A DNA stretch of 64,000 bases from Leeuwenhoekiella palythoae (lineage in GTDB: Bacteria; Bacteroidota; Bacteroidia; Flavobacteriales; Flavobacteriaceae): positions 372,001 through 436,000 of the forward strand of contig NZ_FQXT01000002.1 of NCBI RefSeq assembly GCF_900130045.1, in the 5' to 3' direction. This document shows positions 17,198 to 63,735 of the stretch, in pieces; the first letter of the stretch is position 1; each line of letters starts with the position of its first letter. The notes below the pieces were generated by a model. The model was not told the DNA's origin. It did not search any database and worked only from the letters and a program-made list of their open reading frames with translations. The position numbers and the translations under genes were made by a program.

Positions 17198-17225
17198 AAA
17201 ACCCGTAAGCAGGCTTACGGGTTTT
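17198..17225 (-). terminator. Terminator at the end of the sugar-oxidation minus arm
   Basis: Perfect 13-bp inverted repeat (17198-17210 with 17213-17225), read on the minus strand as a GC stem followed by TTTTATTTTT. It lies 22 bases after the stop of the DUF1080 gene. Confidence 0.85.
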
Positions 17226-17247: not shown

Positions 17248-18051
17248 CTACAGCTTGCGCACCCAAATATTTCTAAAGCTCACCGGGTTTCCGTGATCTT
17301 GAAGTTTGATAGGGCCTTCACCGTGCGCCGGATTTTTCGGTTTTCCTATGTATTCGGTAGTACCTTGAATTTCGGTATTATCTTGTACTAGCACTCCGTT
17401 GTGCAAAACCGTTACTGTAGCCGCTTTGGTTTTGTTTCCATCTGCGTCAAATTCCGGCTGATGATAGATGATATCATAAGCTTGCCATTGTTCGGTAGGT
17501 TTAGTTGCATTGACTAACGGAATACTTTGCTTGTAAATCGCAGTTGCTTGTCCGTTTGAATAGGTTCGGTTTTCAAAGCTATTCAATACCTGAACTTCGT
17601 ATAAACCTTGCAAGAAAATACCGCTGTTTCCGCGGCCTTGACCTTCACCCTCTACAACTTGCGGCGCTTGCCACTCAACGTGCAATTGCATATCGCCAAA
17701 ACTTTCTTTGGTCTGAATATCTCCTGTGCCGCCCACAACGGTCATAGAACCGTCTTTATTGATCTGCCAAGGCGCATTAACCACAGAATCTTTTGTGCTT
17801 TCCCAAGCATCCAGATTTTCTCCATTAAAAAGAACCACAGCATCAGAGGGTACGTTATTTTCATCAAAAGAAACCACCTCAGGTTCCGGTTCCCAAACTT
17901 CGGTAGCTTCAGGATCTGTGATAGGAGCTTCTTCTTCTACGGCAGTAGTATCTTCAACCGGTGCAGTGGTTTCTTCGCTTTTCTTTTCTGAAGTATCGCA
18001 AGAAAAAAGCAAACCAGCTGCTACAAACGGAACTATAAATTTTTTATTCAT
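17248..18051 (-). CDS. DUF1080 lipoprotein (3-keto-glycoside-cleaving family)
   Basis: 267 residues. Lipoprotein signal with lipobox LFSC (Cys18), an acidic Glu/Thr/Val linker (20-65), then a DUF1080 / 3-keto-disaccharide hydrolase beta-sandwich: VVLFNGENLDAWE, NSGIFLQGLYEVQVLNSF and the closing IKLQDHGNPVSFRNIWVRKL. The family is known to act on glycosides oxidised at C3. The protein should be tethered in the periplasm or at the outer membrane. It is paralogous to the gene just upstream (2-base gap), so the two may split substrate types. Last gene of the minus arm, followed by a strong terminator. Confidence 0.88.
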   Translation of the reverse strand: MNKKFIVPFVAAGLLFSCDTSEKKSEETTAPVEDTTAVEEEAPITDPEATEVWEPEPEVVSFDENNVPSDAVVLFNGENLDAWESTKDSVVNAPWQINKDGSMTVVGGTGDIQTKESFGDMQLHVEWQAPQVVEGEGQGRGNSGIFLQGLYEVQVLNSFENRTYSNGQATAIYKQSIPLVNATKPTEQWQAYDIIYHQPEFDADGNKTKAATVTVLHNGVLVQDNTEIQGTTEYIGKPKNPAHGEGPIKLQDHGNPVSFRNIWVRKL

Positions 18052-18053
18052 AA

Positions 18054-18800
18054 TTAGAGTTTTTTAATTTTTATGTTTTTAAAGGAAACTTGATGTCCGT
18101 GATCCTGTAATGCGATAAGACCGGTGTCTGTTTTAGCGAAAGCTTCCCAGCTGGCAAACTTTGAATTTGACACTAAATCCTCCCATCCTTCTCCTTTTAC
18201 AGGAAAGGTCACGACTTCTTCACCATTCAGTACAATAATGCCTTGATTAGTATTGTAATCAATAGTGATCTCGTAGCTGTTCCATTCTCCCGCAGGATTT
18301 ACAATACCTTCTGGAGCACCTATCATATCATATAAAGCGCCTGATCTATGGCTTGGTCCAGCTTTAGTGTCCGGGTGACGCTCGTCATCTAGAATCTGAA
18401 TTTCAGGTCCGGTAGCGTAGGGCTCGTGGTATTTTGGGTCTTCTTCTACAGCCCACATAATTCCGCTGTTTCCACCTTCAGAGATCATCCAATCCATTTT
18501 TAAAACAAAGCTGGTGTAGGCTTCATTAGTAACAAGATTTTCAGACCCATCTCTGTTTTCCGCAGGAGTAAATACAAGGGCATCATCAACAATTTCCCAT
18601 TGCGTGGGAGCTTCGCCGTTGTAGGCATGCCATTTGTCAAGATTAGTCCCGTCAAAAAGCACTTCCCATTCGCCATCTTCAGGCTGGGTTGTTTCGGTGG
18701 TAGCTACTGCTACTTCTTCAGTTTTTGCCTCTTGAGCTTTTTCTTTACACGAGGTAAAAAACGCCATAGCAAGGGCTACCGACAGTATTAATTGTTTCAT
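18054..18800 (-). CDS. DUF1080 lipoprotein, second copy
   Basis: 248 residues. Lipobox FTSC (Cys18), a Glu/Thr linker, and a DUF1080 domain from about residue 45: WEVLFDGTNLDKWHAYNGE, the central GGNSGIMWAVEED, and the terminal IALQDHGHQVSFKNIKIKKL. The domain matches the downstream paralogue at the ends but differs through the middle, which carries an extra segment (EIQILDDERHPDTKAGP). Expected role: periplasmic cleavage of 3-keto-glycosides. It follows the TIM-barrel gene by 10 bases in the same transcript. Confidence 0.88.
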   Translation of the reverse strand: MKQLILSVALAMAFFTSCKEKAQEAKTEEVAVATTETTQPEDGEWEVLFDGTNLDKWHAYNGEAPTQWEIVDDALVFTPAENRDGSENLVTNEAYTSFVLKMDWMISEGGNSGIMWAVEEDPKYHEPYATGPEIQILDDERHPDTKAGPSHRSGALYDMIGAPEGIVNPAGEWNSYEITIDYNTNQGIIVLNGEEVVTFPVKGEGWEDLVSNSKFASWEAFAKTDTGLIALQDHGHQVSFKNIKIKKL

Positions 18801-18810
18801 TGTTTGTGGT

Positions 18811-19863
18811 TTAAAGTCCTAAAATTCGTTTTAATTTGGCTTCATCGGTCTTTGCTCCTGCAAAATCATCAAATGCCTTTTCTGTAGCTTCAATGATGTG
18901 ACTAGCGATAAAAGGTGCGCCTTCGCGTGCTCCTTGCTCCGGAGATTTTATACAACATTCCCATTCCATCACCGCCCAGACATCGCAGCTATATTCGGTG
19001 AGTTTAGTAAAAATGGTTTTAAAATCTATTTGCCCATCACCAAGGGAACGATAGCGGCCTGCGCGATCTCGCCAATCACCATAGCCTCCAAATGCGCCCT
19101 TTTTTCCGGTAGGATTAAATTCTGAATCCTTAACGTGGAACATTTTTATAAACTCGTGGTAGTTGTCTATATACTCGATGTAGTCTAATTGCTGAAGCAC
19201 AAAATGACTGGGGTCGTAAAGAATATTAACACGTTTGTGATTTCCGGTAGCTTCCAGAAAACGTTCAAAAGTTACCCCGTCATGAATATCTTCTCCCGGA
19301 TGCACTTCATAGCATACATCAACCCCTTGCTCGTCAAAAGTATTTAAAATAGGAGTCCATCTATTTGCTAACTCTTTAAAGCCCATTTCTACCAATCCCG
19401 GCGGGCGTTGTGGCCACGGGTGAAAGGTATGCCAAAGTAAAGAACCGCTAAAGGTACCGTGCACGTCAATCCCTAAATTTCTGCTGGCTTTTGCAGCACT
19501 CATCAACTGATCAACCGCCCAAGCCTGACGCTTTTTAGGATTGTTCTTGTAATCGTCAGGTGCGAAGTTGTCAAACATCTCATCATAAGCAGGATGCACG
19601 GCAACCAGTTGCCCTTGCAGATGCGTAGAAAGTTCGGTTATTTCTAGGCCGTAGCTTTGCACTTTTCCTTTTAATTCATCGCAATAGGTCTTGCTTTCTG
19701 CAGCTTTTTTCAGATCGATCAAGCGACCTTCCCAAGTGGGTATTTGAATGCCCTTGTAGCCTAGATCACTTGCCCATTTACATAACCCATCAAGCGAATT
19801 GAAAGGTTCTTTATCATCCATAAATTGTGCAAGAAAGACAGCGGGGCCTTTAATGGTTTTCAT
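18811..19863 (-). CDS. Sugar phosphate isomerase/epimerase (TIM barrel)
   Basis: 350 residues with no signal peptide, so cytoplasmic. It is an AP-endonuclease-2 / xylose-isomerase-like barrel. Likely metal ligands are the Glu in CYEVHPGED, the Asp/His of NILYDPSHFVLQQ, the His of KMFHVKDSEF, and the Glu in AVMEWECC. Members epimerise, isomerise or dehydrate keto sugars. Placed between the Gfo/Idh dehydrogenase and the DUF1080 genes, it probably handles a 3-keto sugar released by them; the exact reaction cannot be read from sequence. A hairpin separates it from the gene before. Confidence 0.85.
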   Translation of the reverse strand: MKTIKGPAVFLAQFMDDKEPFNSLDGLCKWASDLGYKGIQIPTWEGRLIDLKKAAESKTYCDELKGKVQSYGLEITELSTHLQGQLVAVHPAYDEMFDNFAPDDYKNNPKKRQAWAVDQLMSAAKASRNLGIDVHGTFSGSLLWHTFHPWPQRPPGLVEMGFKELANRWTPILNTFDEQGVDVCYEVHPGEDIHDGVTFERFLEATGNHKRVNILYDPSHFVLQQLDYIEYIDNYHEFIKMFHVKDSEFNPTGKKGAFGGYGDWRDRAGRYRSLGDGQIDFKTIFTKLTEYSCDVWAVMEWECCIKSPEQGAREGAPFIASHIIEATEKAFDDFAGAKTDEAKLKRILGL

Positions 19864-19882
19864 AGTAGTTGATTTATTTTAT

Positions 19883-19916
19883 AAAAAATCAAGCGCCTCC
19901 TAAGAGACGCTTTTTT
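19883..19916 (-). terminator. Hairpin inside the minus-arm operon
   Basis: On the minus strand AAGCG-t-CTC ... GAG-g-CGCTT forms a stem with one mismatch, followed by GATTTTTT. It lies between the Gfo/Idh stop and the TIM-barrel start, so it could lower expression of the three distal genes rather than end the operon. Confidence 0.55.
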
Positions 19917-19920
19917 AAGA

Positions 19921-21072
19921 TTATTCTTTTAGACTTACCCAAGCCGAATTGTTGTCATTTGACGCCACAGCAGCATAGATAAATTGCATTCCTCTTAACC
20001 CGTCATCAATTGTCGGGAAATCGGGTCGCTCGCTAATTGCTGCTCCATCTTTAACCGATAGCACTTCTTTTGCAAAGCTTCGGTAAATGGTTGCAAAACC
20101 TTCTAAGTAGCCTTCAGGGTGCCCCGGAGGAACACGCGTATATTCTGTAGAAGCTTCATATGTGCCATTTCCACCAGGTGTGTAAATCTGTTTTGGTTTA
20201 TCGAGCCAGTATGCGGTAAGTTCGTTAGGATTTTCTTGTCCCCAAGCGATGCTTCCTTTGGTTCCATAAACGCGGATGGCTAAGTTGTTCTCTTCTCCTG
20301 TTGCGATTTGCGAAATGCTCAAGGTTCCTTTAGCATTATCCTCTAGACGCAAAAGAATATTACCATCATCATCTAGCACGCGACCGGCACCAAAACTGGT
20401 AAGATCTGCCGCAAGTTCTACGATTTTCTTTCCGGTGATGTATTCGGTTAAGTTTTCTGCGTGGGTGCCAATGTCGCCAAGCGCACCGCCTATACCAGAT
20501 TTGCTAGGATCTACACGCCAAGAAGCTCCTTTATGCTCGGTTTCTTCAACAGCGGTTGACATCCAACCTTGTAGGTATTGTACAACAACCTTTCTAATAT
20601 CGCCAAGCTCTCCGTTCTGGATCATCAAACGCGCTTGCTTTACCATTGGGTAACCGGTGTAATTATGGGTAAGCGCAAACACTTTTCCACTTTGCTTAAC
20701 TACTTTTTGTAGGTCAAACGCTTCCTCAAGACTAAGTGTTACAGGTTTATCACAAATCACGTGAAAGCCGTGCTCTAAAGCCATTTTTGCCGGTGGAAAA
20801 TGCATATGATTTGGCGTTACGATTGACACAAAATCCATACGCTCGTCTTCAGGAAGTTCGGCTTCCTTTTCGATCATTTCTTCAAAACTTTTATATGCGC
20901 GCTCAGGAGCAACACCTAAAGCTTCGGCAGATTTTAGACTGCGCTCTGCGTTGCTGCTAAAAGCACCACAAACTAAATCTACCATTCCATCTATTCGGCT
21001 GGCACGTCTGTGTACATCGCCTATAAAAGAGCCTTGGCCGCCACCGACCATTCCCATTTTTAATTTTTTCAT
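19921..21072 (-). CDS. Gfo/Idh/MocA family oxidoreductase
   Basis: 383 residues from ATG 21072 (MKKLKMGMVGGGQGS). A longer open frame to 21183 exists but overlaps the upstream gene and adds a cysteine-rich tail without family likeness, so I reject it. It has an N-terminal Rossmann fold with GGGQGSFIG. The family CDKP motif (HVICDKPVTLSLEEA, about residue 105) is present, and GIGGALGDIGTHAENL holds the usual D-x-x-x-H near 205. No Tat or Sec signal, so cytoplasmic. Such enzymes use tightly bound or free NAD(P) to oxidise or reduce sugars, often at C3. Two bases separate it from the MFS gene. Confidence 0.92.
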   Translation of the reverse strand: MKKLKMGMVGGGQGSFIGDVHRRASRIDGMVDLVCGAFSSNAERSLKSAEALGVAPERAYKSFEEMIEKEAELPEDERMDFVSIVTPNHMHFPPAKMALEHGFHVICDKPVTLSLEEAFDLQKVVKQSGKVFALTHNYTGYPMVKQARLMIQNGELGDIRKVVVQYLQGWMSTAVEETEHKGASWRVDPSKSGIGGALGDIGTHAENLTEYITGKKIVELAADLTSFGAGRVLDDDGNILLRLEDNAKGTLSISQIATGEENNLAIRVYGTKGSIAWGQENPNELTAYWLDKPKQIYTPGGNGTYEASTEYTRVPPGHPEGYLEGFATIYRSFAKEVLSVKDGAAISERPDFPTIDDGLRGMQFIYAAVASNDNNSAWVSLKE

Positions 21073-21074
21073 CG

Positions 21075-22304
21075 TTATACTTTTTCGCCTTTGTATTCTA
21101 TTTTTTCGTTTTTGAATGCGATCAGGAAGAACACAAATACCGCAGCAGCAAAGGCCGCAGGATACAACCAAATGGTCTTCCAATCGTGAGTTTCTCCCAC
21201 AAGATAATTATCTGTGATTTGGCCTGCAACCCAAAATCCTATTAACATTCCTACCCCGTAAGTGGCTAATGTTATAAGTCCCTGAGCAGCACTCTTGTTG
21301 CTCGATCCTGCTTTTGAATCGGTGTAAATTTGTCCCGAAACAAAGAAGAAATCATAACAAACGCCGTGAAGGGCGATACCGATTAGAAGCATAAAGGAAA
21401 GTTCGTCTGCGTTTCCGAATGCAAAGAGGACATAACGAATAACCCAAGCCAACATCCCAAAAAGCAATGTTTTTTTGATACCGAAGCGTAACAGGAAAAC
21501 TGGAATTAAAAGCATAAACAATACTTCGGAAATTTGCCCGATAGATTGTTTAAGGGTTGGGTTTTCCATTTGCAATTCGGTTAAAAAAGGATTGGTGTTT
21601 TGATAATAAAACGCTAATGGAATACAGATCAAGATCGAAGAAATAAAGAAGATCAAGAAGTTTTTATTCTTTAGCATCGTAACCGAACTCAACCCTGTTT
21701 TTTCAAGAATTGATTGATTTTCGTCAGATTTAATAGGTGGTGTTTTAGGTAATAAAAAGCTGAAAACTCCTAAAAATGCTGAAGCAATAGCGGTCATTGT
21801 AAAGGTGTTGCTCAATAAACCTTCTTGAATTCCGCTTTGCGAATCCCAACCTAAAAGGCTGATGATGAATCCGGCAACAATCCAACCTATGGTTCCAAAA
21901 ACACGAATCCATCCAAAATCTTTTGATGGGTTGTTCATTTGTCTAAAAGCAACCGAGTTTACTAAGGCCAAGGTTGGCATATAAGCGATCATATACCCCA
22001 AAACATACGGATAGAACACTGCAAAATCTGTAGTCTGACTCATTTGATACATTAAAAATGCACCCACGAGATGCAGCACGCCTAAGATGCGTTCTGCATT
22101 AAAAAATTTATCGGCAATAAGCCCAATGATAAAGGGTGCAATGATTGCTCCCCAAGATTGGGTTGAGAATGCCATTGCGCTTTGTGCGCCGGAGGCCTCT
22201 AAATTGTTTCCTAAAAATGTTCCCAGGGTTACAAACCAGCCTCCCCAAATAAAGAATTCGAGGAACATCATTAGTGATAATTGAAATCGAACAAGTGGTT
22301 TCAT
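21075..22304 (-). CDS. MFS sugar/nucleoside:H+ symporter (NupG-like)
   Basis: 409 residues with twelve hydrophobic helices. The opening KPLVRFQLSLMMFLEFFIWGGWFVTLGTFL and the Gly/Pro-rich loops match the NHS (NupG/XapB) branch of the major facilitator superfamily. In Bacteroidota such carriers commonly sit next to Gfo/Idh and epimerase genes and are then more likely to carry sugars than nucleosides; that is inference. It would bring periplasmic 3-keto or free sugars into the cell. Flanked by the Gfo/Idh gene (2 bases) and the lipoprotein TIM-barrel gene (16 bases). Confidence 0.88.
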   Translation of the reverse strand: MKPLVRFQLSLMMFLEFFIWGGWFVTLGTFLGNNLEASGAQSAMAFSTQSWGAIIAPFIIGLIADKFFNAERILGVLHLVGAFLMYQMSQTTDFAVFYPYVLGYMIAYMPTLALVNSVAFRQMNNPSKDFGWIRVFGTIGWIVAGFIISLLGWDSQSGIQEGLLSNTFTMTAIASAFLGVFSFLLPKTPPIKSDENQSILEKTGLSSVTMLKNKNFLIFFISSILICIPLAFYYQNTNPFLTELQMENPTLKQSIGQISEVLFMLLIPVFLLRFGIKKTLLFGMLAWVIRYVLFAFGNADELSFMLLIGIALHGVCYDFFFVSGQIYTDSKAGSSNKSAAQGLITLATYGVGMLIGFWVAGQITDNYLVGETHDWKTIWLYPAAFAAAVFVFFLIAFKNEKIEYKGEKV

Positions 22305-22320
22305 GTATGGTATTTTGAGA

Positions 22321-23298
22321 TTATTTTAAATTTTGAGCGGTATTGATCAAAAGCTCTTTAGTGAGCATAATGCCTTCTTCTGGTGTGTGGTTTTCGCCTT
22401 CATATTCTACACCTATAAAATCGGTGTATCCGGCATCTTTTACTGTCTGAAGAATTTTAGTAAAATCCATTGAGGTTTCTTCACCAGCTTCATTAAAGTC
22501 GTAGGTCTTGGCGCTTACGGCAAGTGCTTTTGGCATCAACTCTGCGATACCTTTGTATTTGTCATACTCTTTAACACATGGAGCTCCCCACATTTCGCCG
22601 TTTTCGCGTTCTAGGCAAAAGTTACCAAAGTCGGGCAGCGTACCGCAATTGTCCATATCAATCGCATTGATCACTTCCATCAGTAAAGCAGCATCAGACG
22701 AATAGCCTCCGTGATTTTCTACGGTAACTTCTATGTTCTGTGACGCACCGTACTCAGCAAGTTTTTTGAGTCCGTCTATTGCGCTGTTTTTCCAAATTTC
22801 ACGGTCGGGGGAGCCTATGAGGTTAACACGAATGGCGTGACAGCCTAAGTATTTTGCGGCATCCACCCATTTTTTGTGGTCTTCAACAGCTTGATCGCGT
22901 TCAGATTCACTTTCGGCGGCAAGGTTTCCTTCACCATCAACCATGATAAGAACGTTTTCTACTTCAAACTCGGCGCTTTTAGCTTTTAACTTAGGAAGAA
23001 TAGAATCTAGTGCAACTTGATCGTTGTCGTAAGTTTCCATCATTGGGGTATACAGCTGACTTACGTACTCAATCCCTTCAAAACCCATTTCGTGTGCTTT
23101 TTCGGCAAAATCCAAAGGGTTCATTTCGCCATTTCTTATGGCTTCGTTGAGTGACCATTGCGCCAGTGAAATTTTAAAAAATGGCTGTTTTTGGGCTACT
23201 ACAACGCTTTCATTAGAATTTTTTTCAGTTTTTTTTTCGCTTTTACACGAGAAGACAGCTACTGCAAAAAGAGCTGTCAATGCGAGTTTAACGTTCAT
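22321..23298 (-). CDS. Lipoprotein sugar isomerase/epimerase (TIM barrel)
   Basis: 325 residues. Lipoprotein signal with lipobox VFSC (Cys18) and a Lys/Glu/Ser linker, then an AP-endonuclease-2-like barrel starting ISLAQWSLNEAIRNGEMNPL. Likely metal ligands include the Glu of TVENHGGYSSD, the Asp of TLPDFGNFC, and the Glu of FIGVEYEGE. An exported member of this usually cytoplasmic fold implies a keto-sugar reaction in the periplasm. First gene of the minus arm; it diverges from the GMC gene across a 167-base control region. Confidence 0.85.
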   Translation of the reverse strand: MNVKLALTALFAVAVFSCKSEKKTEKNSNESVVVAQKQPFFKISLAQWSLNEAIRNGEMNPLDFAEKAHEMGFEGIEYVSQLYTPMMETYDNDQVALDSILPKLKAKSAEFEVENVLIMVDGEGNLAAESESERDQAVEDHKKWVDAAKYLGCHAIRVNLIGSPDREIWKNSAIDGLKKLAEYGASQNIEVTVENHGGYSSDAALLMEVINAIDMDNCGTLPDFGNFCLERENGEMWGAPCVKEYDKYKGIAELMPKALAVSAKTYDFNEAGEETSMDFTKILQTVKDAGYTDFIGVEYEGENHTPEEGIMLTKELLINTAQNLK

Positions 23299-23416
23299 TG
23301 AATAAGCAATTTAGGTTGTTGTTGGTGGGTTGAAAAACCTGCTTAACCCCCGATAAATATATAAGTTCTCTAAATTATACTTTTTTTGGTTTATCTAAAA
23401 AATAACTTAAAATTTA

Positions 23417-23424
23417 TATATTTG
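23417..23424 (+). promoter_or_regulatory. -7 box for the GMC operon
   Basis: TATATTTG fits TAnnTTTG. It lies 42 bases before the GTG start at 23466, in the divergent region shared with the minus arm. I see no operator repeat that could bind a regulator. Confidence 0.5.
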
Positions 23425-23465
23425 ATAGCATAGGCTAGATTATATTATTAAAAACTAAATAAAAA

Positions 23466-25175
23466 GTGAGTAGTATTAAACCTGAAGAGATGTACGATGC
23501 CATCGTGGTAGGTACAGGAATTAGTGGTGGCTGGGCTGCCAAAGAATTATGCGAAAACGGTCTGAAGACACTTGTTCTTGAACGTGGTCGTATGGTAAAA
23601 CATATTGAAGATTATCCCACCATGAATATGGATCCTTGGGATTTTAAATTCAAAGGACAGCCAACCAAAGAAGAAGAGGCTAAACAGTTTAAGCAAGCCC
23701 GTACAGGGTATACTACAAACAAGGCGCATAGTCACTTCTTTGTAAACGACTTAGAGCACCCTTATAACGAGACCAAGCGTTTTGACTGGATGCGTGGGTA
23801 TCACGTGGGGGGTCGTTCAATTATGTGGGGTCGTCAGAGTTATCGTTTAAGCGATATTGATTTTGAAGCCAATAAAAAAGAAGGTATTGCCGTAGATTGG
23901 CCGGTACGTTACAAAGATATTTCACCTTGGTATGATAAGGTTGAAGAATATATAGGAGTGAGTGGTGAAAACCTTGGATTGCCACAACTTCCTGATGGTA
24001 ATTTTGGACCGCCAATGGAGCTTAACTGTGTTGAAGAGCACCTTAAGAAGAACATGGCGCAAAATTATAAAGATCGTCTTTTAACCATTGGTCGTACAGC
24101 GCACATCACCTATACAGATAAGACTTTTGAAGGGCGTTCTGCGTGTCAATATAGAAACCGTTGTATGCGTGGGTGTCCGTTTGGGGCTTATTTTAGCTCT
24201 AACTCATCTACATTACCTGCTGCAGAACGTACAGGAAATATGACGTTGAGACCTTTTAGTATTGTGAGTGAAGTAATCTATGATGACAACACAAAACTTG
24301 CTACGGGAGTAAAAGTAATTGATGCCGAAACTAAAGAAGAAATGATCTTCAATTCAAAGGTTGTTTTCTTATGTGCATCTGCAATTGCTTCGGCTTCTAT
24401 CTTAATGCAATCTAAGTCAGACCGTTTTCCTAACGGATTAGGAAATGATAGTGGCGAATTAGGTCACAATATTATGGACCATCACTTTAATGTAGGTGCT
24501 TCAGCAAAATTTGACGGTTTTGAAGACCAATATTATAAAGGTCGTCGCGCAAATGGATTGTATATACCTCGTTTTAGAAACGTAGGCGGTGATTCTGACC
24601 AAAAGAACTTTAAGCGTGGTTATGGTTACCAAGGTGGTGCAAGCCGCGGTGATTGGACCGAAGCGATCTCTGAAATGAAATATGGTGAAGATCTTAAGAA
24701 AGCGATCTCTGAACCTGGAGGTTGGACGATTGGAATCAATGCCTTTGGAGAATGTCTTCCGTATCACGAAAATAAAATGACCCTTGACTATGATAAATTA
24801 GACAAATGGGGATTGCCTACTATTACATTTGATGCTGAGTGGAAAGAGAACGAGTGGGAAATGCGTAAAGATATGAAGCAGCAGGCAGCAGAAATGCTTA
24901 CCAATGCCGGCTTTAAAGATGTGCAAACCTATGATAATCCAGGAGCTCCGGGTCTAGGTATTCACGAGATGGGAACTGCTCGTATGGGACGTGATCCTAA
25001 AACATCTGTACTTAACGGAAACAATCAAGTACATACGGTGCCTAACGTTTATGTAACAGATGGATCATTTATGACTTCTGCAAGTTGTGTGAACCCGTCA
25101 CTAACCTATATGGCATTTACGGCGCGCGCAGCAAACCACGCAGCAGAACAATTTAAAAACGGAAAATTCGCTTAA
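23466..25175 (+). CDS. GMC oxidoreductase, catalytic subunit with iron-sulfur cysteines
   Basis: 569 residues from a GTG start, the only start that keeps the flavin loop (VVGTGISGGWAAKELCENGL, about 15-34) with a short lead. FAD-binding GMC fold; the active-site pair is His500 and Asn543 (IHEMGTARMG and CVNPSLT). Cys227, Cys233 and Cys237 have the +6/+4 spacing that holds a [3Fe-4S] cluster in FAD-dependent glucose dehydrogenase, so electrons likely leave to a protein acceptor. There is no signal peptide; export probably rides on the Tat small subunit encoded 2 bases downstream. By family and neighbours it is a sugar or glycoside 3-dehydrogenase. Confidence 0.9.
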   Translation: MSSIKPEEMYDAIVVGTGISGGWAAKELCENGLKTLVLERGRMVKHIEDYPTMNMDPWDFKFKGQPTKEEEAKQFKQARTGYTTNKAHSHFFVNDLEHPYNETKRFDWMRGYHVGGRSIMWGRQSYRLSDIDFEANKKEGIAVDWPVRYKDISPWYDKVEEYIGVSGENLGLPQLPDGNFGPPMELNCVEEHLKKNMAQNYKDRLLTIGRTAHITYTDKTFEGRSACQYRNRCMRGCPFGAYFSSNSSTLPAAERTGNMTLRPFSIVSEVIYDDNTKLATGVKVIDAETKEEMIFNSKVVFLCASAIASASILMQSKSDRFPNGLGNDSGELGHNIMDHHFNVGASAKFDGFEDQYYKGRRANGLYIPRFRNVGGDSDQKNFKRGYGYQGGASRGDWTEAISEMKYGEDLKKAISEPGGWTIGINAFGECLPYHENKMTLDYDKLDKWGLPTITFDAEWKENEWEMRKDMKQQAAEMLTNAGFKDVQTYDNPGAPGLGIHEMGTARMGRDPKTSVLNGNNQVHTVPNVYVTDGSFMTSASCVNPSLTYMAFTARAANHAAEQFKNGKFA

Positions 25176-25177
25176 TT

Positions 25178-25816
25178 ATGAAAAGGAGACAGGTATTAAA
25201 AAATTTAGGTCTGGGTGCTGGTTATGTGATAGCGGCTCCGGCGGTATTTAATATTTTACAGAGCTGTAAAAGCGAACCAAAAAGCGATTGGGAGCCGGTT
25301 TTTATGAATGCGGCTAATGGGTATGCATTAACTCAAGTACTTGATGTGATTCTACCAAAAACCGATACTCCGGGAGCTTCAGAATTGAATATTGCTCAAT
25401 TTATTGATAGTTACATGGATGAGGTTGCTGGAGATAAACAACGTGAAGAGTTTAAAGCAGGTGCTAATGCTTTTGCATTAAGCTTTAAAGAGAACTTTGA
25501 TAAAGAACTCGAAGATGGTGATGCCGAAGATTTTGAGCAGGCAGTTGCTAAGTACCTTGGTGCAGATGAAGAAACGCGTAATGGATATTTAAAGCGTATT
25601 TCTGAAACGCAAGATCCCGAAGCGCCAGAGGCTGATTTTGATGCGCATGCAGGTTCATATGCTTACCTGAATGCAGTAAGAGATTTAGGAATCTGGGCTT
25701 GGAAAAACAGTGAAGCTGTAGGGGAAAACGTACTTTGGTATGATCCAATTCCAGGTGCGTATCTCGGCTGTATCTCTACGGAAGAAGCCGGCGGTGGAAA
25801 AACGATGTCACTCTAA
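25178..25816 (+). CDS. Gluconate 2-dehydrogenase subunit 3-like, Tat lipoprotein
   Basis: 212 residues. Twin-arginine start MKRRQVLKNLGLGAG, then a lipobox ILQSC (Cys30), so it is a Tat substrate that becomes a lipoprotein. The rest is helical and matches the gluconate 2-dehydrogenase small-subunit family (LTQVLDVILPKTDTPGASEL, near residue 48). In related dehydrogenases this subunit escorts the signal-less GMC subunit through Tat and holds it at the membrane. It starts 2 bases after the GMC stop, and its TAA overlaps the next ATG by one base (TAATG). The pair is a defined two-subunit enzyme. Confidence 0.9.
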   Translation: MKRRQVLKNLGLGAGYVIAAPAVFNILQSCKSEPKSDWEPVFMNAANGYALTQVLDVILPKTDTPGASELNIAQFIDSYMDEVAGDKQREEFKAGANAFALSFKENFDKELEDGDAEDFEQAVAKYLGADEETRNGYLKRISETQDPEAPEADFDAHAGSYAYLNAVRDLGIWAWKNSEAVGENVLWYDPIPGAYLGCISTEEAGGGKTMSL

Positions 25817-26742
25817 TGAAAAGAAGAAGTTTTATACAAAAAGGAGCCCTAAGTGGTTCCTTTTTGGCTTTAGGAGGGCCCGAACTATTTGCGATGCAAC
25901 ATAGGCTTGCCGCTATGCCTAAACATCACTTCAACTTAAACTATGCTCCACATTTGGGTATGTTTAAGAATCTGGCAGGCGATGATCCTATAGCTCAAAT
26001 TAATTTTATGGCAGATCAGGGCTTTACCGCATTTGAAGATAACGAAATGCGCAACAGGCCGGTTGATATGCAAAATAAAATAGGTGCTGCATTACAAAAG
26101 CATTCTATGCAAATGGGCGTGTTTGTAGCGCACAAGATCTATTGGACCGCCCCAAATCTCACCAGCGGTAAACAAGATCTAAGAGCAGAATTCTTAGCCG
26201 ATATTGAAGCATCAATTGAAGTTGCTAAGCGGGTAAATGCGAAATGGATGACCGTTGTGCCGGGTTACGTTGATATGACTCAGGATATCAATTACCAAAC
26301 CGCACACGTGGTAGAAAGTCTAAGGCAAGCTTCGGCTTTGTTAGAACCACACGGTCTAACTATGGTTTTAGAGCCGCTTAACTTTTTTAATCATCCCGGT
26401 TTATTTTTGAAAGAAAGTCCGCAGGCGTATCAAATTTGTAAAGCAGTTGACAGTCCTGCTTGTAAAATATTATTTGATGTGTATCATCAGCAAATTCAGG
26501 AAGGAAACCTGATTCCTAATATTGATGCGTGTTGGGAGGAAATCGGCTATTTTCAGATGGGAGACAACCCGGGGAGAAAAGAGCCTACAACTGGTGAGAT
26601 CAATTACAAAAACATTTTTAAGCACATACATAAAAAAGGTTTTAAAGGAGTCTTAGGGATGGAGCACGGCAATTCAATGCCTGGTCCAAAAGGAGAGCAG
26701 GCGGTGATTGATGCTTATGTGAGTTGCGACGATTTCCTTTAG
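25816..26742 (+). CDS. Tat-exported hydroxypyruvate-isomerase-like protein
   Basis: 308 residues. Tat signal MKRRSFIQKGALSGS with a hydrophobic core and likely cleavage near residue 27 (LFAMQ). The mature part is a hydroxypyruvate isomerase-like TIM barrel: MVLEPLNFFNHPG and ILFDVYHQQIQEGNL carry the expected Glu and Asp/His metal ligands, and GVLGMEHGNSMPG the final Glu. It is translationally coupled to the small subunit (TAATG). An exported isomerase directly after a periplasmic sugar oxidase suggests it works on the oxidised sugar; substrate unknown. The stop is followed one base later by the remnant of the convergent ASCH gene. Confidence 0.85.
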   Translation: MKRRSFIQKGALSGSFLALGGPELFAMQHRLAAMPKHHFNLNYAPHLGMFKNLAGDDPIAQINFMADQGFTAFEDNEMRNRPVDMQNKIGAALQKHSMQMGVFVAHKIYWTAPNLTSGKQDLRAEFLADIEASIEVAKRVNAKWMTVVPGYVDMTQDINYQTAHVVESLRQASALLEPHGLTMVLEPLNFFNHPGLFLKESPQAYQICKAVDSPACKILFDVYHQQIQEGNLIPNIDACWEEIGYFQMGDNPGRKEPTTGEINYKNIFKHIHKKGFKGVLGMEHGNSMPGPKGEQAVIDAYVSCDDFL

Positions 26743-27255: not shown

Positions 27256-28851
27256 TTATTTCTTCAAGTCAAGATAGACTCCGTTAGTCCACCCGAAGCC
27301 ATCTTGAGTAGGATATTCTCCACCTCCGGCGACGAGGGTGGTATCGATCACATTGTATTTTTCCAGCATTTTACCGGTGCGTTTATAAACGCGGTCATTG
27401 AGGTGTAACCAGCGGCTGGTAATCTCATTAGCAAGATCGTTCAATCCGTAGGTTTGCAGTCCTCTAATCGCTAACCATTGATGTGGAGGCCAGCCATTAG
27501 GGCTGTCCCATTGTTGCTTGTTATTGATCAGCGAGGTGACTAAACCGCCCGGCTTAAGAAACTGACTTTCTAAAGTTGTAGCAACGTGTTCTGCTTGCTG
27601 CGGAGAGGCTACTTTAAAATATAAAGGGTAGACCATCGCCAAAGAAAGTATCGGCGACAGGGCTTCGGCTTTTAAGTCATAGTCAGTGTACGTTTGTTGC
27701 GTTGCATCCCATAACCACTTGTCAATGGCGTCTTTGCGGGAAGCCGCAGCTTTCACCATTTGCTCAGCGCCTTCTACATCGTCTGCATACCGGCGCACTT
27801 TGGCCAAAGTTTGCTCTAAGTTATACATCAGCGCATTCAAATCTACCGGAACAATTTGCGTGGTTTGTATCGTGCTTATCTTGTTAGGATCTGCAAACCA
27901 TCTGCTGCTAAAATCCCAACCGCTTTCACAAGCCGCAGCTATGTTGAGGTAAACTTCGTGGGCGTCGCGATCAGCTTCTTGAGCAGTGGTAATGTCTTCA
28001 AAATAACTTTCTGCACGCGGTGTTTGCGTATTACTAAAATAACGGTTCAAAACGTGACCGTCGGGCATTTTTACAACGCGCGCTTCGGTTTCAGAAGGGT
28101 TAATACTTTGTGCGCCTTTCATCCAGAATGCATACTCCTTTTCTAGAACATCGTGGTATTTTAGATAGACGCTTTTTTCCTCTTTGATCTCTGCCAAAAG
28201 ATTTACCATTTCTGCAAAAAACGGCGGCTGCGAGCGCCCTAAATAATAGGTGCGATTTCCGTTGGGGATAAAGCCAATGGTATTGATCTGATAGGCAAAA
28301 TTGTCAAGAATATTTTCGATGAGATCAATTTCTCCGGCTTCTTTGAGCCCTAATAAAATAAAATAACTATCCCAATAATACACCTCTTGAAACCTTCCGC
28401 CGGGAACGATATATGCATTAGGTAAAGCGATTCTTGAGCCGTTTTCAACACTATCTGCGTCACGCTTTAGATATGACCACAATGCGTTAATATGCTCTTC
28501 GGTAGTACGGGTAGTGTCTGCTTCAAAACCTGAGGTTGGCGTGACCGGTAATGTGAAATGTTCTAAAACAAAAGCCTCCAGATCAAAATCTGGCTGCTCT
28601 TTTTGCTCTTGATACTTCTCAAGAATTTTCTCTGAAGGAATTTTGGGTTCACAGTCCACAAAAGTTTTTCCATCTGCAAAAACGTGATTGGTTTGTACAG
28701 CGACCAGAAGTTCACCATAGCGGTCAATGGGGTTGAGGTCTTTATCTGGAAATTGTGTTGTGGATACCGCGGTATCTTGCTGCTCGTTTTTACAAGAAGA
28801 AACAAAAATCATTGCTAGGAGGACGAATATTTTAGAATAAGATTTAACCAT
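27256..28851 (-). CDS. treA: Lipoprotein alpha,alpha-trehalase (GH37)
   Basis: 531 residues from ATG 28851 (MVKSYSKIFVLLAMIFVSSC). This start makes a good lipoprotein signal with lipobox VSSC; the in-frame ATG at 28890 only adds a non-signal stretch. Both trehalase signatures are present: PGGRFQEVYYWDSYF (near residue 160) and QQWDSPNGWPPHQW (near 455). It splits trehalose into two glucoses, probably in the periplasm or at the outer membrane. It stands next to the sugar-oxidation locus but on its own transcript with a terminator, so a link to that pathway is only suggestive. Confidence 0.92.
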   Translation of the reverse strand: MVKSYSKIFVLLAMIFVSSCKNEQQDTAVSTTQFPDKDLNPIDRYGELLVAVQTNHVFADGKTFVDCEPKIPSEKILEKYQEQKEQPDFDLEAFVLEHFTLPVTPTSGFEADTTRTTEEHINALWSYLKRDADSVENGSRIALPNAYIVPGGRFQEVYYWDSYFILLGLKEAGEIDLIENILDNFAYQINTIGFIPNGNRTYYLGRSQPPFFAEMVNLLAEIKEEKSVYLKYHDVLEKEYAFWMKGAQSINPSETEARVVKMPDGHVLNRYFSNTQTPRAESYFEDITTAQEADRDAHEVYLNIAAACESGWDFSSRWFADPNKISTIQTTQIVPVDLNALMYNLEQTLAKVRRYADDVEGAEQMVKAAASRKDAIDKWLWDATQQTYTDYDLKAEALSPILSLAMVYPLYFKVASPQQAEHVATTLESQFLKPGGLVTSLINNKQQWDSPNGWPPHQWLAIRGLQTYGLNDLANEITSRWLHLNDRVYKRTGKMLEKYNVIDTTLVAGGGEYPTQDGFGWTNGVYLDLKK

Positions 28852-28873
28852 AACATTTACTCGATTTTCGAGG

Positions 28874-29117: not shown

Positions 29118-29630
29118 TTATTCTACGATGAATTTACCTTTCATTACACTATAATGCCCTGGGAAGCTACAGATAAAGTCATACGTTCCTGGTGCCGGTG
29201 GGTCGAACTCAATTGTGTCAGACTGGCCACCGCCAAGCATTTTAGTATGTACGATTACCGCGTCTGTATCTTGAGGAATATATGCATTATCTCGTGCTGC
29301 TGAAGCTTTAGCGCCAAAAGCAGGAATTTCGGTTCCTTGGGTTAAAAGCACAAAATTATGCCCCATAACTTCCACGGCTTGTTTACCGGTGTGGCGCAAG
29401 GTTAGTTTTACCTTTTTGCCGGCAGGAACGCGAATTTCATTTTTATCAAATTGCATCATATCTGTTGCAAGAAGTACTACTTCAGTAACATTCTCATCAG
29501 ATTTTTTTGAAGTTGAAGAAGAATTGGAACCTATTTTAACCGTCTCTTTTTCTTCTTTCTTTTTATCGTCTCCGCAGTTTACTAATATTAGCGAAAGCGC
29601 AAAAAGAAGTGTGATTTTTAAAGTTTTCAT
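29118..29630 (-). CDS. Azurin-like cupredoxin lipoprotein
   Basis: 170 residues. Lipobox LVNC (Cys19), a Lys/Glu/Ser linker (20-48), then an azurin domain. The type 1 copper ligands are all visible: His91 in MGHNFVL, Cys154, His159 and Met163 in CSFPGHYSVMKG, with the azurin spacing C-x4-H-x3-M. It should be a membrane-tethered periplasmic electron carrier. It sits about 2.4 kb beyond the GMC dehydrogenase operon, which needs an acceptor and has no cytochrome gene beside it. That makes it a candidate partner, though azurins also serve oxidases and nitrite reductase. Single-gene unit. Confidence 0.92.
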   Translation of the reverse strand: MKTLKITLLFALSLILVNCGDDKKKEEKETVKIGSNSSSTSKKSDENVTEVVLLATDMMQFDKNEIRVPAGKKVKLTLRHTGKQAVEVMGHNFVLLTQGTEIPAFGAKASAARDNAYIPQDTDAVIVHTKMLGGGQSDTIEFDPPAPGTYDFICSFPGHYSVMKGKFIVE

Positions 29631-63626: not shown

Positions 63627-63649
63627 TTATTAAATGAGTATTAGAAGCT

Positions 63650-63735
63650 ATTTCCTGCTTTCCGCTGTATCTTTTTAATGCTTTCGCCTTTAGGCTCAAC
63701 CAGTAAAAAGGATGCCGCTGCAATCAGGGCTAAAA
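63650..63735. repeat. Hairpin-rich intergenic element between hmgA and hppD
   Basis: TCCTGCTTTCCGC begins and ATCAGGGCT ends the unit. CCTG pairs with CAGG, ATCTTTTTA pairs with TAAAAAGGAT, and GCCTTTAGGC forms the apex. Elements of this shape and edge sequence are dispersed in Flavobacteriia as I remember them; only one is in this window. Confidence 0.45.

Follow-up and report, generated by a model that had tools for sequence, protein, structure and literature searches.

We analysed a window of 64,000 nt from Leeuwenhoekiella palythoae (contig NZ_FQXT01000002.1, positions 372,001-436,000 of the forward strand), in which nine genes form a candidate locus for the degradation of glycosides through 3-keto intermediates. 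All coordinates below are those of the window. The genes lie in two arms on opposite strands, separated by a divergent intergenic region (23299..23465). The minus arm encodes a lipoprotein TIM barrel (22321..23298), a carrier of the major facilitator superfamily (MFS; 21075..22304), a Gfo/Idh/MocA oxidoreductase (19921..21072), a second, cytosolic TIM barrel (18811..19863), and two DUF1080 lipoproteins, termed a (18054..18800) and b (17248..18051). The plus arm encodes a GMC flavoprotein (23466..25175), a small subunit of the gluconate-2-dehydrogenase subunit 3 type (G2DH3; 25178..25816), and a third TIM barrel that appears to be exported by twin-arginine translocation (Tat; 25816..26742). The coordinates and strands were confirmed from the open reading frames (ORFs) and the families of all nine proteins from Pfam matches above cut-off, which bears out the gene calls of a first-pass annotation made from the sequence alone.

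In Pfam, the DUF1080 proteins matched PF06439 (3keto-disac_hyd; E 1.1e-47 for a and E 1.1e-42 for b), the carrier PF03825 (Nuc_H_symport; E 1.6e-116), and the small subunit PF13618 (E 5.9e-19), and the three barrels matched AP_endonuc_2 (E 2e-35, 2.2e-25, and 8.6e-34). The Gfo assignment rests on Pfam and on the Protein Data Bank (PDB) entry 3v5n (E 1.3e-118). We set the Gfo start at an ATG (19921-21072), because a longer ORF starting at TTG overlaps the MFS gene. The GTG start of the GMC gene is uncertain, and an in-frame ATG lies at 23490. Export signals were assessed by eye and by conservation, without a predictor, and the compartments given below are assigned from these signal motifs.

To determine the conservation of the locus, genome contigs were scanned with the cytosolic barrel, and at least 581 stretches were confirmed. 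The best 80 were kept; they were ranked by hydratase (cytosolic barrel) similarity and are therefore close relatives, the best named one among the matches listed being Leeuwenhoekiella nanhaiensis (95% hydratase identity). Locus counts were made by tblastn at 1e-8 in the 66 of these 80 loci that span at least 19 kb, the 14 shorter ones being omitted. GMC and Gfo genes were found in all 66, and the lipoprotein barrel, the MFS carrier, and a small subunit next to GMC in 61 each. At least one DUF1080 copy was present in 65/66 and at least two in 30/66. GMC and the hydratase were encoded on opposite strands in 53/66 loci, so that both the gene set and the two arms diverging from 23299-23465 are conserved, and the gene arrangement is not due to chance. 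GMC, the small subunit, Gfo, the hydratase, and DUF1080 are still present in loci with no detected lipoprotein barrel and MFS carrier (L086, L089, and L109). Among 60 relatives, the genome itself included, the hydratase was found in 25: its own genome, 12/12 other congeners, and 12/24 other members of the family. It was found in 0/23 relatives from other families of the order.

The GMC protein carries both the N- and C-terminal GMC domains and, from its homology, is the probable catalytic subunit of a glycoside 3-dehydrogenase of the LacA/GlycDH type. In a PDB sequence search, it was nearest to large subunits of fructose and glucose dehydrogenases (FDH/GDH; E about 1e-33). Residues C227, C233, C237, H500, and N543 are conserved in at least 97% of 74 sequences, and we take H500 and N543 to be the catalytic positions, with help from the names of FDH mutants among the PDB matches. 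At what we assume to be the Fe-S ligand positions of FDH/GDH, the first and third residues are Cys and the second is Gln (Q228), and C237 is an extra conserved Cys. The small subunit showed no relative in the PDB by sequence (best E 0.043). Its twin arginines (R3, R4) and a lipobox-like C30 are conserved in at least 97% of 68 sequences, and it therefore looks like, and probably is, a Tat lipoprotein; the Tat signal given in the first-pass annotation is corrected here to the lipoprotein-like kind. The GMC protein has no visible signal peptide of its own, and it probably leaves the cell together with this partner, as in fructose and glucose dehydrogenases.

Related GMC genes were found elsewhere. 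A paralogue with 57% identity and its own G2DH3 subunit lies in another part of the genome (L038:9015-11290, minus strand, C9); of the 18 ORFs around it, 10 were scanned, and these included an MFS gene and no DUF1080, barrel or Gfo. A third GMC with G2DH3 belongs to a second, different cluster of the 3-keto type in the same genome (C8, 680000-699999; L037), which also contains a tandem DUF1080 protein, GH92, a SusC/SusD-like pair, and two Gfo proteins whose best NCBIfam match, BT_2158_fam, is below cut-off. In some relatives (Kriegella and others; L047, L104, L115, L120, and L124), the locus itself holds two or three GMC copies and an ASCH gene.

The cytosolic barrel aligned over its full length (residues 1-350) with PDB entry 8ro4 (E 1.5e-168, 564 bits), whose title names it AtHYD of Agrobacterium tumefaciens. 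The alignment retains the Glu, Asp, His, and Glu positions of 8ro4, and E186, H188, D217, H243, and E300 are conserved in at least 97% of 81 sequences; by analogy with the barrel family, these residues would bind a metal. PMC10628242 treats AtHYD as a putative hydratase, places its step behind that of the eliminase AtOGE, and calls the evidence for hydration preliminary. Public records label the protein of the window as a sugar phosphate isomerase/epimerase. By homology, it is probably a 2-hydroxy-3-keto-glucal hydratase and not an isomerase. It is 58-69% identical to orthologues on five plasmids.

The lipoprotein barrel is a probable periplasmic beta-eliminase of 3-keto-glycosides, on the basis of its conserved residues and its modelled fold. 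A passage of PMC10628242 describes a Mn2+ site and a catalytic His for the eliminase type, and we took the diagnostic positions from there (a metal ligand followed two residues later by the catalytic His, and Asp and Glu ligands). When aligned to DgpC, the lipoprotein barrel shows E194, H196, D223, and E298, all invariant in 29 sequences, as is its lipobox C18. In a fold search with its AlphaFold2 model (mean predicted local distance difference test score, pLDDT, 90.7), the nearest structure was the uncharacterised 4ovx, followed by the C-glycoside deglycosidases DgpB/C and DfgA/B; single-sequence and profile searches ranked the matches in the same order. The barrel has in common with DgpB/C, DfgA/B, and CGD the fold and the Glu-x-His, Asp, and Glu positions, and differs from these deglycosidases in its lipoprotein signal and in having no second-subunit gene among the nine. 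Two points weigh against an eliminase. All 29 sequences have Ser at position 262, where DgpC has the metal-ligand His of beta7, and tagatose epimerases reach similar template modelling scores (TM-scores) with the model. Thus, the fold alone is not decisive, and owing to S262 we call the protein eliminase-like and not a member of the eliminases. AtOGE itself (8BVK) was not listed among the barrel sequence-search matches, nor among the fold matches of two models, of which 50 were listed per model. According to the relevant passage on AtOGE, it has His at both 132 and 134, in contrast to the Glu-x-His and lipoprotein signal of the exported barrel here.

The Tat barrel matched models of the hydroxypyruvate isomerase type (Hyi), below their cut-offs, and 3ngf in the PDB (E 1.1e-21). 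Its structural model (mean pLDDT 81.8) was nearest to EC1530 and 3ngf, then to epimerases, with the 3-keto-glucoside 4-epimerase YcjR at rank 23 among the fold matches. It was present in 23/66 loci and would be an accessory member. By model and sequence, it alone of the three barrels looks like an isomerase or epimerase.

Both DUF1080 proteins score above the Pfam cut-off of 26.8 (146.6 and 162.9 bits) and are probable periplasmic enzymes that cleave 3-keto-glycosides. Protein b has the lipobox FSC and is 51-58% identical to DUF1080 proteins in loci of Xanthomonas, Palleronia, Hymenobacter, and Catenovulum. In protein a, which has DUF1080 relatives in the PDB (e.g. 4jqt, 3h3l, and 8rr2), E133, Q135, D138, Q232, D233, and H234 are conserved in at least 97% of 68 sequences. 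Pfam names the family 3-keto-disaccharide hydrolase, and periplasmic hydrolysis of 3'-ketolactose is proposed in the text of PMC9007349 on this step; cleavage could accordingly be hydrolytic and the role of the hydratase smaller, which counts against a purely non-hydrolytic route. The first-pass annotation had gone further in this direction, with oxidation, DUF1080 hydrolysis, and isomerisation by barrels at the cell surface, then import of a keto-sugar and its reduction inside. The Hyi/epimerase-like Tat barrel fits that scheme. The cytosolic barrel, as a full-length AtHYD homologue, and the eliminase-like lipoprotein barrel do not, and their hydratase and eliminase homologies fit better than a set of three isomerases, which we rejected. 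We therefore regard the hydrolytic scheme with isomerase barrels as improbable.

The Gfo protein, a probable cytosolic 3-keto-glucose reductase, is 51% identical to the Gfo that adjoins an AtHYD homologue in Rhizobium beringeri. There appear to be two kinds among the relatives: the best identity to the Gfo of the window is below 55% in 53/78 loci and at least 55% in 25, with hydratase identity above 80%. The Gfo of most relatives is thus rather different, and the exact reaction may vary, a further reservation about the route. The MFS carrier, a probable importer of a glycal or keto-sugar, shares 54-60% identity with nucleoside permeases encoded in the clusters of Xanthomonas sacchari and Hymenobacter.

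This gene content agrees with the described anatomy of 3-keto-glycoside pathways (GMC/G2DH3, DUF1080, carrier, and Gfo), as far as the cited passages of PMC9007349 and PMC10628242 go, and the first-pass annotation was right to name a 3-keto-glycoside locus. According to PMC9007349, lactose use by Caulobacter crescentus involves lacABC and DUF1080 along with a transporter, a reductase, and two "epimerases". Compared by description, that locus shares with ours the LacA-type dehydrogenase, DUF1080 (CCNA_01705/01698), a transporter, two barrels, a reductase, and periplasmic oxidation (PMC9007349), and the clustering of dehydrogenase, DUF1080, transporter, barrels, and reductase in the window is of this lac type. 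Our locus differs in its nearby azurin, in its third, Tat-exported barrel, and in the absence of a cytochrome from the arms. We take the Caulobacter LacB to be a cytochrome. Pfam results for the window genes scanned contained no c-type cytochrome, and the nearest PF00034 matches of the genome lie elsewhere.

A gut version of this chemistry is reportedly the subject of a 2024 Nature paper. The A. tumefaciens operon of GlycDH, OGE, HYD, and Gfo is known from purified enzymes, and elimination by OGE was shown; GlycDH specificity is described as broad, and the flavoenzyme was used with a TAT partner from Rhizobium (passages of PMC10628242). Our locus has in common with it, on that partial description, the flavoenzyme, the AtHYD homologue, and the Gfo reductase, and the sequence of oxidation, elimination, hydration, and reduction; the DUF1080 proteins are extra here. 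The main text of PMC10628242 nowhere uses the word "periplasm"; this holds for the main text alone.

Similar sets were found among nine plasmid regions examined. Plasmids of X. sacchari R1, Palleronia sp. LCG004, and Hymenobacter volaticus carry GMC (56-58% identity), DUF1080 (51-58%), and hydratase (58-69%); each also encodes G2DH3, Gfo, a transporter, and two or three more TIM barrels. They differ from the window in that a c-type cytochrome is annotated in 2/3 and a LacI regulator in 2/3, the Palleronia transporter is of the ABC type, and the X. sacchari Gfo is only 32% identical. Each of the three has at least one further barrel with His-Asn-His, fitting the AtOGE residue numbers in the passage of PMC10628242 that lists them. 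These His-Asn-His barrels had no BLAST match to the lipoprotein barrel of the window at 1e-3, and a plasmid search with the latter returned only 4 records. Plasmids of Catenovulum, Spirosoma, and Haliscomenobacter hold partial sets with some genes absent. Those of Phyllobacterium, Rhizobium, and Azospirillum encode the hydratase, Gfo, and an ABC transporter, with no GMC in the region viewed. The three barrels had been considered an unusual depth for one locus; given the comparable sets in Pseudomonadota and Hymenobacter (X. sacchari, Palleronia, and Hymenobacter plasmids), and with most of the parts present in Caulobacter lac, their number is ordinary.

Taken together, we consider it quite probable that the locus encodes a two-compartment, non-hydrolytic pathway of glycoside degradation of the lacABC/GlycDH kind, for which we infer the reactions, the substrate, and the imported intermediate. 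In the periplasm, GMC, exported with its Tat-lipoprotein partner, would oxidise C3 of the sugar of a glycoside, and the electrons would leave through a periplasmic carrier. The lipoprotein barrel, DUF1080 or both would then carry out beta-elimination of the 3-keto-glycoside, giving the aglycone and 2-hydroxy-3-keto-glucal. The MFS carrier may import the glycal, which the cytosolic hydratase would convert to 3-keto-glucose and the Gfo enzyme to glucose. The same kinds of enzymes could also act on a substrate that is not glucose-based or not a glycoside, such as an inositol, an anhydrosugar or an algal glycoside. Models of levoglucosan dehydrogenase and of IolE/IolG do score with Gfo and the hydratase, in every case far below cut-off, and the broad GlycDH specificity noted in part of PMC10628242 would allow it. 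The full-length match to the glucal hydratase and the lac-type anatomy of the cluster speak against such substrates, and we hold them to be unlikely, if slightly less so than the hydrolytic scheme.

The locus had been called complete. Its nine parts are indeed present, and the electron acceptor was left out. The best candidate for it, probably, is an azurin-like blue-copper lipoprotein beyond the nine genes (29118..29630, minus strand; PF00127, E 2.7e-17), in which H91, C154, and H159 are conserved in at least 97% of 13 sequences; inspection of the sequences by eye showed the copper-site Met. Sister loci carry in this slot a c-type cytochrome whose lipoprotein tether is similar. Of the 61 loci that offered 1.5 kb of room or more, 23 have a small azurin or c-type cytochrome ORF no further than 4 kb from the GMC arm (12 azurin, 11 cytochrome). 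A GMC or small-subunit match was present in 75 of 80 loci; in these, 24 carrier ORFs lie at most 3.5 kb from either gene (722,750 bases), and 0 in the other 797,950 bases. The tethers, the segments after the lipobox, are also alike: 13 of 15 azurin tethers (two of the 15 ORFs, L045 and L073, are identical) scored best against one of 12 cytochrome tethers, above 358 other lipoprotein-like ORFs. This likeness is suggestive only, because the sequences are related and the tethers are rich in Lys and Glu.

We then surveyed 159 genomes of the family. Azurin (E up to 1e-30) was found in 48, GMC (E up to 1e-200) in 90, and both in 38 (Fisher p 2e-4, uncorrected for kinship). At least 26 of the 39 azurins in these 38 genomes are no further than 6.5 kb from one of the GMC genes listed. 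A uniform model, in which each genome is assumed to have 1.6 GMC genes and 3.5 Mb, predicts about 0.23. Among the GMC matches listed, 27/27 azurins within 20 kb are convergent with GMC and 12 are unlinked. Most of the unlinked ones sit on a different contig, and some linkage may therefore be hidden by the draft state of the assemblies.

The azurin could also be a mere syntenic neighbour that serves general respiration and is unconnected to the dehydrogenase. In the first locus count, it occurred in 9/30 loci with YicC and in 0/36 without; all 9/9 azurin matches having YicC nearby, plain synteny was favoured at first. The genome survey weakened this view. Sorted by eye, with neighbour names checked in Pfam for one example each, 12 of the 26 linked azurins lie in a first context, in which GMK/NadD/YicC adjoin the hydratase arm on its far side or the far side of azurin has an alpha/beta-hydrolase or EamA gene. 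Another 13 lie in a second, with an aldehyde dehydrogenase and/or threonine dehydratase beyond azurin and no GMK/YicC in the 20 kb viewed, and one (G194) is unassigned. Azurin thus stays beside the locus in two contexts, and none of the neighbours of either was found in the 6 azurin regions examined from five hydratase-less genomes, one of which has GMC elsewhere (in one of the five genomes, two of its five azurin matches were inspected). A cytochrome fills the first-context slot in four loci (L086, L089, L095, and L136). In 8/14 GMC-bearing loci of Aquimarina, a cytochrome encoded on the GMC strand precedes the aligned GMC by 20-32 bp.

Several observations weigh against a dedicated carrier. 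The azurin gene is convergent and outside the operon, with ASCH and trehalase genes in between, and 38/61 loci have no azurin or c-type cytochrome near the GMC arm. At the thresholds used, azurin also occurs without the locus (10/48 azurin genomes lack this GMC), and 52/90 GMC genomes lack azurin. Three genomes that have the locus elsewhere (G013, G023, and G030) keep a cytochrome next to this alpha/beta-hydrolase gene, relatives of the cytochrome are present in many genomes that lack the locus, and the L. palythoae genome holds one small c-type cytochrome besides its single PF00127 protein. Plain synteny is accordingly a serious possibility, which we put a little below even. Only slightly more favoured, and still tentative, is the view that flavobacterial loci contain an exchangeable redox module, in which one kind of lipoprotein tether bears either azurin or a monohaem cytochrome c; both would occupy one genomic slot and serve as the dedicated electron acceptor of the GMC dehydrogenase. 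Among the matches listed in our literature search, no paper joined azurin with a glycoside 3-dehydrogenase. The exchangeable carrier is the likely new point here; the pathway itself is of a known kind.

Between the plus arm and azurin lies an alpha,alpha-trehalase of the TreF/TreA type, an apparent lipoprotein (27256-28854, minus strand). It was rejected as a member of the locus, being present in only 5/66 loci, and is therefore probably a lineage-level insertion. No regulator was found among the nine genes. A scan for terminator-like sites placed a bidirectional hairpin beyond the end of the minus arm (17198..17225) and another between the hydratase and Gfo genes, within what is presumably one operon (19891-19912, minus strand); the region has 24 such sites against 14.1 (standard deviation 4.0) in shuffles. 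A Bacteroidetes-type promoter pattern had 0 matches against 2.9 expected in the window, and sigma-70-like sites were not above shuffles (21 against 27.1). A Flavo-1 RNA was detected at 63647-63735 of the window (minus strand; 66.4 bits, gathering score 42).

The dehydrogenase or a close paralogue in 90/159 genomes makes the non-hydrolytic glycoside pathway seemingly common in the family. Naming the hydratase and the eliminase-like barrel corrects the public isomerase/epimerase label of the hydratase and makes the route testable. If azurin or the cytochrome is indeed the acceptor, the missing redox step would be filled, and sugar cleavage would be tied to the supply of copper or haem. Glycoside cleavage in these bacteria would then be wired directly to respiration and run on copper or haem.

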